NCBI GenBank assembly: GCA_027483645.1 | Contig: JAIXUD010000021.1 | Coordinates: 186,001-250,000 of the forward strand | Length of the DNA stretch: 64,000 nt | Source: Sphingobacteriales bacterium | Lineage (GTDB): Bacteria > Bacteroidota > Bacteroidia > Chitinophagales > CAIOSU01 | Direction: 5' to 3' | In this document: one piece after another, positions 1 to 25,211 of the stretch | How the letters are laid out: the number at the start of each line of letters is the position of its first letter | Position numbering within the stretch: position 1 is the first letter of the stretch | Program-made: the position numbers and the translations under genes | Notes under the pieces: model-generated | What the model was told of the DNA's origin: nothing | The model's input: the letters and a program-made list of their open reading frames with translations, nothing else | The model's database searches: none

Positions 1-1957
1 AATTGGTACTTTGGGAACTGTTGAAGTTTCCGCCTTGAACTACCTGCACACCATCAGCATTTGTGACGGTGTACGAGCCATTGCCATAACTGCAACAAAT
101 ACCATCTCCTTCGCTATCCAATATGGTAAAGGTATAGCAGCCAACAGCCAAGCATGGGTTCAAGGTATAATTGGTATTGCTAGAAAATCCCGTCTCTTCC
201 CAAACAACCAAACCATTGTTGTTGACTATACGCAATGTGGTTTCGCCGCCATAAAAATCTGTTCGCAAGCCTACCGTAATGCTCCTACCAGCCACTACGG
301 TAAAGGCGAAATCAGCATTATCGTTACTATTATCTAAATCTGTTTGGCCATTTACCAGCAGCACCTCTGCCTCCATAGTGTAAGCGCCAGCAGGCAAGGT
401 GGTGGTAGGTAGGGCGATGCTTCCAGCGTTGCCAAAAGCGATATTACCCGTCCAAGTTAGGGTATCCCATGGCCCAGGGTTTGCCCGGTAGCGGTAAGTA
501 AAGCTGGTAAGCGCATCACCACCGCGGTTCAGAAAGCGCAGCGTAGCGCTAACGGTGCCATTGCAGCTATATGCGTCTATACCAGCTATATCAGTCAATT
601 GCACATCGCGCGTGGTGGTAGGTACATTAAACGTCGCACCATCTAGTACCGTAGCACCAGTATTATCTGGGTCTAACCAATCCTTTAACCGGTTGGAGGC
701 TGAAGAACCATTCCAGCTAATGGCAAATTTGCCGTAACTATCCTCCAAGCTATTGCCACAAGCGGCACCACCGCCATGTAACTGACCTACTACACGCTTA
801 TTTTGATCAAAAAGTGGCGAGCCCGAGCTTCCACCTTCCGTGGTACCCGAATCCCAATCACCAACTTCCCAGTGGCTATTAGCCGGCGCACCGCCGAAAG
901 TCGAGGCGGTAGCAGGGTCGTTGTCCACGCTAAACTTCTTTACGTCCAAGGCAGGGTGGTGTATGCCTACCGAAGAAGTAGGTGCCGTATTCACATTACT
1001 CCATCCAGCATAATATACGTTGTAAGAAAGTGGTGGGGTGGTGCTCAACTCATAAAGGGCAAAATCGGAGTTAGCACTACGTGCCCTCAATATGCTACCC
1101 GATACGGTTTGAGTTAAAGGTCCATTCTGGTTCGGTGTGCAAGTAGGGCTTTGATAATTGAAACGGAATATCCAAGTAGCGTAATCGCCGCTGTAGCAAT
1201 GGTTAGCGCTAAGGAAATAGGGTGTTCCATCGCCCCTTACGTTATTCACCATAGCACCACTGCATATTTCATCATTGGTGCCCGAAAGATACATAAGGCT
1301 GGAATTAACCTGATTTTCCCAGCCAGCAGAGATGGGGCACACCACATTGTTGTTGCATGAGCCCGACTGACCAAAGCTGCGGCCATCGCCCTCCTCCCTA
1401 AAGAAGATGTTATAATAGGCGTGTATCACTTTATTTACCGCTATGCGGCCTTGCCCGCGCACGGCGGCAGGCTCGTAGTATTCAATAATGGTATGGTCGC
1501 CCTTTACCACATCGGTGGAGAACTTACCGTGGTCTTTATTATTGAAGGGTGTAAAGGCACCCAGTACCATACTCTTATCGGCACTGTACACAAACATGCT
1601 GGCCCCTTGAGGCATGTAGAATTGGCTATAAATCAGGTTGATAGAATACGCCCCGCTAGACTTGATGCCCATGCGCCAAATACGGTCGCCATTCTTTAAC
1701 GTGTGCCATTGGCCGCTGTTGGCAAGGTTGAAATCAACATCCATAGCTTTGCCAAAGCGGAACGCATTTCCCTTTACGTTTCGGGTTTCGTCTTCGGCCA
1801 TCAAGGTCGCCACATCTACAGGGGGCATGGTTGCCACTGGCATGTCATCACCTATATATACCTTGCCAAAACTTGCCGGTGTGCCGCCTGCACTAACTTG
1901 TGCCTGTGTGCTAACTGCAACCGACACCAATACCAATAGCCAAAAAATGTGTTTCAT
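1..1957 (-). CDS. Secreted lysyl-endopeptidase-like serine protease (3' end beyond window)
   Basis: The frame is open from ATG at 1957 leftwards to the window edge, about 652 codons, so the C-terminus is missing. A Sec signal peptide (residues 1-20, ending QAQ) leads into a region of about 180 residues of propeptide type. The trypsin-fold domain follows: His253 in SANHC, Asp298 in NSDFA and Ser378 in EGGSSGSP form a full catalytic triad, and the many Cys resemble Achromobacter protease I-type lysyl endopeptidases. After about residue 450 come Ig/CARDB-like beta domains and a GDGICCSYGNG stretch. Proteases of this build in Bacteroidota are usually T9SS cargo. The expected C-terminal sorting domain would lie outside the window, so that part is inference. 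The likely role is extracellular protein degradation; Lys specificity is assumed from the family and cannot be read here. Confidence 0.88.
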   Translation of the reverse strand, partial: MKHIFWLLVLVSVAVSTQAQVSAGGTPASFGKVYIGDDMPVATMPPVDVATLMAEDETRNVKGNAFRFGKAMDVDFNLANSGQWHTLKNGDRIWRMGIKSSGAYSINLIYSQFYMPQGASMFVYSADKSMVLGAFTPFNNKDHGKFSTDVVKGDHTIIEYYEPAAVRGQGRIAVNKVIHAYYNIFFREEGDGRSFGQSGSCNNNVVCPISAGWENQVNSSLMYLSGTNDEICSGAMVNNVRGDGTPYFLSANHCYSGDYATWIFRFNYQSPTCTPNQNGPLTQTVSGSILRARSANSDFALYELSTTPPLSYNVYYAGWSNVNTAPTSSVGIHHPALDVKKFSVDNDPATASTFGGAPANSHWEVGDWDSGTTEGGSSGSPLFDQNKRVVGQLHGGGAACGNSLEDSYGKFAISWNGSSASNRLKDWLDPDNTGATVLDGATFNVPTTTRDVQLTDIAGIDAYSCNGTVSATLRFLNRGGDALTSFTYRYRANPGPWDTLTWTGNIAFGNAGSIALPTTTLPAGAYTMEAEVLLVNGQTDLDNSNDNADFAFTVVAGRSITVGLRTDFYGGETTLRIVNNNGLVVWEETGFSSNTNYTLNPCLAVGCYTFTILDSEGDGICCSYGNGSYTVTNADGVQVVQGGNFNSSQSTN

Positions 1958-22272: not shown

Positions 22273-22704
22273 ATGGATATATTTATAGATGATCTAATTA
22301 CAAAATCTTCCTTTCTCCATTTTGAGATAGGCACCAAGCTTAATATAGGCGACTATACTTTCGAGATAGATTATACTATCATAAATAATAATTGTTACTA
22401 CTTCTATAATCAAGGAATAGATGTTGAAGTATCCTTACTGAACGGAGTGATTCATTCTTTTGATGTATTGCCAAAGAATCAAGAAAATCGCCTTTTCTTA
22501 GGTTCTATAGCTGGGGAAAGCTTGAATTTAGCTCAGTTTTTTCTTGATGATTTTTTAAGGTTCCTAAATGCCACTAAATTGGAATGGCAAGTCGAAAAAA
22601 TCGACAACAACAATGTATGCTATATCCTGTATGGTGTGCTTACAATGAGGATATACGTTGACCTTAATGGTGTTCCTTCTGTTGCATTACTAAATTTATC
22701 ATAA
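22273..22704 (+). CDS. AT-rich orphan protein, 143 aa
   Basis: From ATG at 22273. No signal peptide, no membrane span; acidic and rich in Asn, Ile and Tyr (IINNNCYYFYN), with a C-terminal beta-rich part. Codon use is clearly more AT-rich than in neighbouring genes, and inverted REP-like copies sit on both sides. No family recognised; the size and composition recall cytoplasmic immunity proteins of contact toxins, but no toxin gene is nearby and no motif supports it. Probably acquired. Confidence 0.6.
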   Translation: MDIFIDDLITKSSFLHFEIGTKLNIGDYTFEIDYTIINNNCYYFYNQGIDVEVSLLNGVIHSFDVLPKNQENRLFLGSIAGESLNLAQFFLDDFLRFLNATKLEWQVEKIDNNNVCYILYGVLTMRIYVDLNGVPSVALLNLS

Positions 22705-22770
22705 GTGCCGGGTGGATTTTATTTCAATATAACAGGGCTGGAGCCTTTCCATTATAACATCACCACATAC

Positions 22771-22835
22771 CCCTGCCCCTTCGGATGTTCACATCCGAAT
22801 GGCTGAGCTGCGAATTTGCAATTCGCTACGCAACA
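22771..22835 (+). repeat. REP-like element, intact copy with compensatory change (R6)
   Basis: Hairpin 1 is TTCGGATGT-TC-ACATCCGAA. Hairpin 2 is GCGAATT-TGC-AATTCGC, whereas copy R2 has GCGGATT..AATCCGC: both arms changed together and pairing is kept. The tail TACGCAACAC parallels CACGTAACAC of R2. Confidence 0.72.
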
Positions 22836-23093
22836 CTCATCAACCCCCACATACAAGGCCAGAGGCTCACTAGGCAACGATATACGTAGTGCTTCCCATT
22901 TATGATATTGCTTGTTTGCCATTCTGTGGCGTTTGCACTAAAGCTCTCACAAAAAAATATCATTAAAACTTATAACACTCAAAATCAGTTGTTTGTAGGA
23001 AATCTAAAAATAAACGAAATTTATATTTTGCGGAAATGAAACCGGGTATTAACTTAGTATTTATCAATACCGAAGTAGTGGCGGCAATAGTGG

Positions 23094-23145
23094 TGGCCTA
23101 CGTGGGGGTGCAATGCCCCGAGCGGTGAACCAGAGGTTCAAGCCA
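23094..23145 (+). ncRNA. Predicted three-way-junction RNA motif, copy 1
   Basis: Outer stem TGGC/GCCA encloses two hairpins: GGGGU-GCAAU-GCCCC and GAACC-AGA-GGTTC. Joining strands are CTACGT(G), GAGCGGT and AA. The copy at 23219 has identical joining strands, while the first hairpin changes from a U-G to a C-G closing pair and its loop differs in length. Conserved junctions with variable loop are typical of structured RNA. Family unknown to me. Confidence 0.5.
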
Positions 23146-23218
23146 AGTCTTCCCTTTTGCAGTGATACCCATTGCAATTAAACATTTCTAATTTTTTACT
23201 TGCTTACAAAGGTATTTA

Positions 23219-23270
23219 ATGGCCTACGTGGGGGCATAGCCCCGAGCGGTGAACCAGAGGTTCAAGCCAT
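23219..23270 (+). ncRNA. Predicted three-way-junction RNA motif, copy 2
   Basis: Outer stem ATGGC/GCCAT, hairpins GGGGC-ATA-GCCCC and GAACC-AGA-GGTTC, same joining strands as copy 1 (125 bp upstream). The sequence between the copies is AT-rich and not conserved. Tandem arrangement is seen in some riboswitches, but the nearest downstream gene starts 600 bp away. Confidence 0.5.
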
Positions 23271-23411
23271 GAGCATTTATTGGTAAAAATTCGCCAATAT
23301 GGAGAAGGTCCTCGACCGGATGTCTTTGCAAGCGCTATTAAGCATCCAATAGCCGTAAGGTAGGTACATGCTGGAAAAAAAATACCCATACAGCCATAAA
23401 TTAGGTTTCCG

Positions 23412-23440
23412 AAAAAACCTCTAAAAATCAGGATTAGAGG
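23412..23440 (-). terminator. Candidate leftward terminator without a known gene
   Basis: On the minus strand CCTCTAA-loop-TTAGAGG is followed directly by TTTTTT (23417-23412). This is a good intrinsic terminator for something transcribed leftwards from 23.4-23.8 kb, where no gene is seen; an antisense or divergent small RNA is possible. Confidence 0.45.
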
Positions 23441-23870
23441 AGCTGCTGGAGTTTTGTAATCCCGTTGTCTCCGTGGAGAATCGATAACCGAAGCTACCGA
23501 GCCGGGCCCGCCATTACTCTAACAAACCGACCTCGTTGTGATAAAATGTTAAGTTTTCGAAACAAAATATTTATGACCGTATGGGCCGACGCAAGCGTCT
23601 GTATTTTTGGAAAAGAACGTTCGTTTTGGTAATTCTAAGGTACGGAATCAATAAGTGAGGCGCAACCCAAAACCGAAATATTTTGCTTGCTGTGGATAAC
23701 TTTTGGCATAAACGGGTGTTAAAGAAAATAGTCAAACCCCGCTTATCCATATACCAGATGTCTTACATTCCATACATTTCTACCCAAAATTAAGTGCCTC
23801 TGTGGGTTGCGGGACATTAATTGCTTGTGAAGATTTTGCTATTTTGTGCATACAAGGCGAAGTACGATTT

Positions 23871-25211
23871 ATGAAGTTAACATTAAAAGAAGTAAGCAGG
23901 TTTTTTTTAGGCCTTTCATTGGTGCTATTTGTCTGTATAAATAGCCAAGCACAGCAGCTGGAAGGGGAAGACGACGACACGGTGGTGGTTGCTACCTCGC
24001 AAGTGGATGTATCGCCCATTTTGCAACAGGCCAAAACCTTTTACGAGGCGGCCAACTATACCAGCGCCATCTCGTTTTTAGATTCGGCGGTTACTTTGCT
24101 CAATGGCACTACCCTCGATATACAATACTGGCTGGCAAAGAGCAACAATGCCCTAACCAGGTTCAAGCAAGCCCAGGTGGATGTAGAGAAATTCCTGGCC
24201 CTGCCCGATGCCAATGTACACCTAGGCTACAATGAAATGCTAGAGCTAAAGGCTACCCTCGACAAGAACCTTGGCGTGGCCGATACTACCGAGCGTGATG
24301 TATCGAAGCTAGTAGGCGGTGGCTTTACCGAAAGCGAAACTTGGGATTATGCCCGTAAAACCGGTAGCCTCAATGCCTACCGAAACTACCTGAAGTTTTA
24401 CCCCAACGGACCCCATGCGGCAGAGGCTAAGCAAGTAGTTGAATATCAAGAAAAGCTGACGCAAGAGCCCAGCAAGCTATTGGTAGAAGCCGTGAAACGC
24501 GGCGATATGAACCTGGTACGCGACCTGCTGAACCGTGGGGCTGACGTAAACTATGCCGATAGCTACACCCGCGTTTTCGAGCGATCGGAAGGGAAGGCTT
24601 ATGAAGTGAGCTACGAGATGCCGCTATACGCCGCGCTGATGAAGATGGACTATGCCATGACCAAGTTTCTGCTGGAGAACGGTGCCGACCCTAACCGGTT
24701 TGTATACCGTAAAGTATATACCTACCGGGGAGGTGGCAAAACCAAGACCATACTGGAGAGCTTGATAATTGTAACTTCACAAAATGGGCGCTACCCCAAT
24801 AGCGACGACCGATTGATTGAATTTATTGACTTGCTACTGCAGCACGGGCTAGAGATAAACTTCTACAACGGCTCGCCCCTAAGTGCTGCCGTGTACTATC
24901 ACGATGCCAAGAAGTACAAGCGTACCAAGCTTATACGCTACCTATTGCGTAAGGGCGCCGACCCCAAACTACCCGGTTGGAACGATGGCGAGCGCAGCGC
25001 GGTTGATATTGCCAAAGAACGTAAAGACAAGCGCCTACTAGAAACCCTGAATGAAAAGCGATATAAAACGGTAAGAAAAGAGCTGGCCAAAAAACGCCAA
25101 CAAGAGCTAAAAGATTATCGCAAGGCAGAAAAAGAAAAGGCCAAGCAAGAAAAGCTGGAACAAAAGAACAGCACTACCACAACTGAGCCTACTGATGCAC
25201 CTAAAAAATAG
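23871..25211 (+). CDS. Exported TPR and ankyrin-repeat protein
   Basis: I place the start at ATG 23871, giving 446 aa with a good signal peptide (LGLSLVLFVCINSQAQQ). A start 69 bp upstream would bury it behind 23 unlikely residues. TPR-like helices span about 45-130 (YEAANYTSAISFLDSAV, QAQVDVEKFLAL). Ankyrin repeats lie about 200-390 (VKRGDMNLVRDLLNRGADVNYAD, DYAMTKFLLENGADPNR, LIRYLLRKGADPKLPG). The last 50 residues are a highly charged Lys/Glu coil. Both repeat types bind proteins, so a periplasmic scaffold is likely. Followed after 49 bp by the Rof-like gene on the same strand. Confidence 0.82.
   Translation: MKLTLKEVSRFFLGLSLVLFVCINSQAQQLEGEDDDTVVVATSQVDVSPILQQAKTFYEAANYTSAISFLDSAVTLLNGTTLDIQYWLAKSNNALTRFKQAQVDVEKFLALPDANVHLGYNEMLELKATLDKNLGVADTTERDVSKLVGGGFTESETWDYARKTGSLNAYRNYLKFYPNGPHAAEAKQVVEYQEKLTQEPSKLLVEAVKRGDMNLVRDLLNRGADVNYADSYTRVFERSEGKAYEVSYEMPLYAALMKMDYAMTKFLLENGADPNRFVYRKVYTYRGGGKTKTILESLIIVTSQNGRYPNSDDRLIEFIDLLLQHGLEINFYNGSPLSAAVYYHDAKKYKRTKLIRYLLRKGADPKLPGWNDGERSAVDIAKERKDKRLLETLNEKRYKTVRKELAKKRQQELKDYRKAEKEKAKQEKLEQKNSTTTTEPTDAPKK

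Follow-up and report, generated by a model that had tools for sequence, protein, structure and literature searches.

The paralogous small RNAs described in the Bacteroidota include FopS (family of paralogous sRNAs), a set of multicopy RNAs of about 65–70 nt found in Bacteroides, with 12–15 copies per genome in the Bacteroidaceae (PMC11697453). These RNAs are mostly intergenic, taxon-restricted, spread over scattered loci, and equipped with their own sigma-ABfr type promoters. Multicopy or sibling small RNAs known elsewhere, as listed in the same paper, include LhrC, Qrr, OmrA/B, and the Neisseria siblings, in which paralogous RNAs combine shared and divergent parts. The Rfp small RNAs of Flavobacterium psychrophilum (e.g., Rfp18) are newly described, structured, stand-alone RNAs of one Bacteroidota genus that lie outside known families; the sections of PMC9723704 considered here describe no multicopy family among them. 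Another stand-alone Bacteroidota RNA is Bacteroidales-1, or 6S RNA (RF01693).

The locus analysed here lies in a window of 64,000 nt (the whole stretch of DNA studied) and, according to our best reading of the sequence comparisons, represents a new paralogous, genus-restricted small-RNA family absent from Rfam 15. Compared by organisation and not by sequence, it resembles FopS in being multicopy, mostly intergenic, restricted to one taxon and scattered over the genome, but differs in its length (about 110 nt), its copy number (2–5 per genome) and the presence of a three-way junction (3WJ). With LhrC, Qrr, OmrA/B, and the Neisseria siblings it shares only the combination of shared and divergent parts, a likeness of organisation from which no homology is claimed. 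Compared by description, it resembles the Rfp RNAs as a structured, stand-alone RNA, the multicopy character being the difference from what those sections report. The family is clearly delimited, has a structure supported by covariation and belongs to a lineage with few described small RNAs; if transcribed, it would be the second, structurally distinct, paralogous small-RNA family of the Bacteroidota, with a covariance model ready for use.

In the window, a 3WJ of about 50 nt was observed twice on the forward strand, at 23,094–23,145 (copy 1) and 23,220–23,269 (copy 2), the spacing from start to start being 126 nt at the 5' end and 124 nt at the 3' end. The initial annotation had reported this repeat at the same place, with the copies 125 bp apart, and its description of a TGGC/GCCA closing stem, two hairpins and joining strands (CTA, G, and A) was accurate, as was the U-G pair of copy 1 (23,109–23,115) replaced by C-G in copy 2 (23,235–23,239). 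A 26-nt pattern, GAGCGGTGAACCAGAGGTTCAAGCCA, occurred twice in the window, versus 0.00 times expected from 100 shuffles. Both copies folded as a 3WJ, formed in copy 1 by P1 (23,095–23,097/23,142–23,144), P2 (23,101–23,109/23,115–23,124) and P3 (23,126–23,131/23,135–23,140). The minimum free energy of copy 1 was unremarkable (z = −1.12); since folding energy alone is not exceptional, the case rests on the relatives.

Alignment of the flanks with these relatives revealed a feature missed by the initial annotation: copy 1 forms only the 3' domain of a larger conserved unit, with a promoter-like sequence upstream. The case illustrates that a hairpin repeat of 50 nt may be part of a gene whose promoter can be recognised. 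The unit opens with an A-rich spacer (23,003–23,021), at which close homology to the other copies begins, followed by a −7-like box, TATATTTTG (23,022–23,030), which reads TATATTTG in other copies and resembles the Bacteroidota TAnnTTTG element (consensus as given in the part of PMC9723704 used here). The predicted small RNA, of about 110 nt, extends from 23,034, a 5' end placed according to the −7 box, to 23,145, where homology ends at GCCA. Within it, the strands ACCG (23,041–23,044) and TGGT (23,091–23,094) are paired in the alignment as stem Pa, and enclose a variable 5' domain (23,045–23,090) which, based on identity comparison and constrained folds, contains a hairpin of subfamily-specific sequence. 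Copy 2, by contrast, is a duplicated 3WJ module alone, with neither promoter nor 5' domain (72.3 bits with a 3WJ-only covariance model). The term "tandem", used in the initial annotation, therefore applies to the window, with its two junctions, but not to the other complete loci, which carry one junction each.

The sequence TTTATATTT was conserved in all complete copies of the alignment. TATATTT(T)G was likewise present in all of them, and at the level of sequence the TATATTTG form alone is an exact match to TAnnTTTG. Except in the window copy, the unit of the full copies also includes an upstream box of about 45 nt (CCCTCACAATCAACCACTTGC...), whose strong matches in the genus were all copies of the element, including the two other copies of the window's own genome. 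A search for this box did not recognise it in the window copy, which may be weakly expressed. At the 3' side, a locus-specific hairpin (23,157–23,177), followed 14 nt later by TTTTTT (23,192–23,197), is a possible transcript end; this region is not homologous between loci. No intrinsic terminator was uniform across copies: the hairpins varied by locus, and one copy (G0_C2, see below) had no convincing one. A small protein starting at the ATG at 23,036–23,038 was considered and rejected: the ORF is not conserved, this ATG being missing and stops being present in most other subfamilies.

BLAST and covariance-model searches identified 2–5 copies per genome, at scattered loci, in four of the five genomes of the genus; the fifth, without copies, is 78% complete. 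Covariance model R1 recovered 13 full copies, one truncated copy (G2, contig C39) and the bare window module. The window's own genome (G000, hereafter G0) has two further copies, at C5:207–261 (G0_C5) and C2:121097–121147 (G0_C2). The model found none in the two other genera of the family. Within the order sample of 398 genomes, its one match outside the genus (39 bits, G354) was taken as chance because it overlaps the beginning of a long ORF resembling an outer-membrane efflux gene; a junction-only model gave the same outcome in this sample. When about 85,000 species representatives were scanned with a pattern, the only matches were in metagenome assemblies that seem to correspond to G001–G003. 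Phage and plasmid collections yielded no copy, none of 22 viral pattern matches being confirmed by the covariance model. The restriction to one genus thus holds for the genomes searched. Rfam 15 gave no match in the window at the gathering threshold, none to the motif at E ≤ 10 (22,700–24,000) and none to its relatives at E ≤ 0.5, in agreement with the initial view of an unknown family.

To describe the structure, 14 sequences were aligned over the junction and stem Pa (alignment A3). In these helices, 96.9% of the cells were paired, versus 24–45% when the partners were slid by 1–3 columns, and 19 double-change cells were observed versus 6.5 ± 2.6 in shuffles. Four pairs covaried: columns 12–64 (C-G/U-A) in Pa, 76–90 and 77–89 (both G-C/A-U) in P2, and 97–111 (U-A/A-U) in P3. 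Stem Pa was paired in 92.3% of its cells, with the change from C-G to U-A kept in three copies of one subfamily. At one locus, the hairpin GCUGC-GAAA-GCAGC of G1 was replaced by GUUGC-GAAA-GCAAC in G2 and G3, a fully compensated difference. Covariation of the stems, on which the initial proposal had been staked, was thus found, with the junction pairs kept through compensatory changes in relatives from a single genus. Support from the alignment for helices maintained in this way is good but not overwhelming, since the count of four pairs was not above shuffles (117 of 500 reached four) and each may reflect one or a few evolutionary events. The forward strand was favoured by 27 G-U pairs (14 of them at one invariant position) versus a single A-C.

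Conservation was unevenly distributed. Between subfamilies, identity was 48–70% in the 5' domain versus 66–96% in the 3WJ, and constrained folds of the 5' domain gave subfamily-specific hairpins; the domain also includes a strongly conserved UUAGU segment. Among the most conserved positions were both P3 strands, the AGA loop and parts of the joining strands. Another hairpin of the 5' domain, Pb (GGUAUU/AAUACC), showed some covariation but was about 3–17 kcal/mol worse than the alternative folds when the other stems were retained, and was dropped, which leaves the idea of a two-state switch without support.

The copies of G1–G3 grouped by locus and not by species, and must therefore predate speciation. 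They were located upstream of uvrD (G2 and G3), of a family 2 glycosyltransferase gene (G1, G2, and G3), of a permease gene that precedes a glutamine synthetase-like gene (G1, G2, and G3), and of a B12-dependent mutase gene (G3, with a truncated copy in G2). The three G0 copies clustered with each other. In G0, no copy accompanies the glycosyltransferase, mutase and permease genes, yet these retain similar proximal promoter-like sequences; conversely, relatives have no copy at the sites that correspond to those of G0_C2 and of the window. The RNA usually lies 70–220 nt from the downstream gene and points towards it, and these genes, which the initial annotation had proposed to inspect, are unrelated from locus to locus (UvrD helicase, family 2 glycosyltransferase, B12-dependent mutase, permease, and cyclase). 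Since G0 orthologues lack a copy and sites differ between species, the element does not serve any particular gene as a constant leader.

The immediate neighbour in the window, also missed by the initial annotation, is a divergent 6S-like RNA (RF01693; 23,386–23,578, reverse strand; 42.1 bits for a gathering score of 60), which is convergent with the motif and lies between it and the ankyrin gene. It does not belong to the family described here, from which it differs in strand, sequence and structure. The five genus members contained one copy each, in every case below the gathering score, so that the Rfam threshold misses this genus. The 6S-like RNA is linked to the motif in G0 only: the gene at its 3' side is a lipoprotein-like small protein gene in G1–G4 and the small-RNA element in G0. 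By this comparison, only G0 has the element at the place it occupies in the window, as a gain beside 6S.

Taken together, these data make it probable that the 3WJ is the 3' domain of a paralogous, genus-restricted family of small-RNA genes that act in trans as regulatory RNAs. The existence of the family, its structure and strand, the promoter-like sequence and the independence from neighbouring genes follow from the sequence comparisons, whereas transcription itself is predicted. Each complete copy would be an independent transcription unit, in which a conserved promoter is followed by a variable 5' domain, which a short stem (ACCG/CGGU) closes, and then by the near-invariant junction. We infer a role in trans from this organisation and from the FopS precedent, and on the same grounds the locus-specific 5' domain, including its conserved UUAGU segment, may contact targets, while the 3WJ would serve as a common stabilising or protein-binding module. 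The initial annotation had rightly envisaged a stand-alone RNA but had considered a leader equally likely; the promoter-like sequence of the element, its changing position between species and the intact promoters of its neighbours favour the stand-alone form.

The closest rival, which we consider unlikely, is an RNA that, like 6S or CsrB, binds or sequesters a protein. The junction would then be the binding site, additional copies would raise the dose, and no base-pairing targets would be needed. Conservation of the P3 strands, the AGA loop and parts of the joining strands exceeds structural need, as this role would predict, and the bare junction module was duplicated in the window; however, no partner protein is linked by position, the neighbouring genes differing at every locus, and no known protein-binding RNA family in Rfam was matched.

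A small, non-autonomous mobile repeat, with a promoter and an RNA-like fold that serves mobility, appears less likely. Two sites occupied in G0 only (beside 6S and beside the cyclase gene), sharp unit boundaries between copies, a partial copy in the window and another that breaks off in P2 before an inserted-looking gene are all compatible with mobility, and a selfish repeat could likewise be confined to one genus and vary in position from species to species. What lowers its probability is the lack of terminal inverted repeats (best complementary run of 4–6 nt) and of convincing target-site duplications, together with the loci at which conserved copies are common to three species. Moreover, only 2–5 copies are present per genome, none occurs in phage or plasmid collections, and the compensatory changes and G-U strand bias point to selection on RNA. 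No transposon end was found, an origin that the initial annotation had named among the findings that would refute its proposal.

It is rather improbable that the 3WJ, with its near-invariant joining strands and P3 hairpin, is an autonomous RNA module with a biochemical activity of its own. Such a module might bind a ligand or cleave itself, in line with the ligand-binding or ribozyme-like pattern seen by the initial annotation, or have a dedicated protein partner; it would be used by several stand-alone RNAs and could be duplicated alone, as in copy 2 of the window.

Still more doubtful is a role in cis, as a riboswitch or attenuator in the leader of the gene that follows. The orientation and usual distance of the RNA are those of a leader, but in a divergent gap either orientation faces a gene; furthermore, the downstream genes do not form one pathway, and they keep their own proximal promoter-like sequences, including in G0, where the RNA is missing. 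In the window, the link to the ankyrin gene suggested by the initial annotation fails, because the 6S RNA lies in between on the other strand and the site is not common to relatives. With neighbours keeping their own promoters and the 6S RNA in between, the motif is neither an ankyrin leader nor a visible transposon end. A chance repeat or the end of a known insertion sequence, suggested by the apparent insertion sequence that G0_C5 adjoins at a contig end, is practically excluded, as none was expected by chance, no insertion sequence was seen at most loci, and orthologous copies in three species already refute it.

Several observations were made around the small-RNA loci. An ORF near G0_C5 (L007:3358–3909) may encode a REP-associated (Y1 family) transposase, which it resembles by eye; the copy number of the element is unlike that of REP elements. 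In G002 (L033:4185–4767 and L031:5096–5374), a RelE-type toxin gene and an upstream partner ORF directly follow one RNA copy, and a small ORF, which we take to be BrnT-like from its appearance, begins just past the copy broken off in P2. At the glycosyltransferase locus (L030 versus L028/L029) and at uvrD (L024 versus L026), homology between species broke off sharply where the element begins on its 5' side, with 33–38% identity beyond. Two inverted copies, L024 and L025, are located on one contig of G002 (C28, at 113 kb and 422 kb), and the arrangement of their neighbours relative to L026 of G003 would fit an inversion of about 309 kb through recombination between copies. Finally, the stretch from the junction to the glycosyltransferase gene (L028:4783–4928) contained several more hairpins; three species conserve them, and some of the changes are paired.
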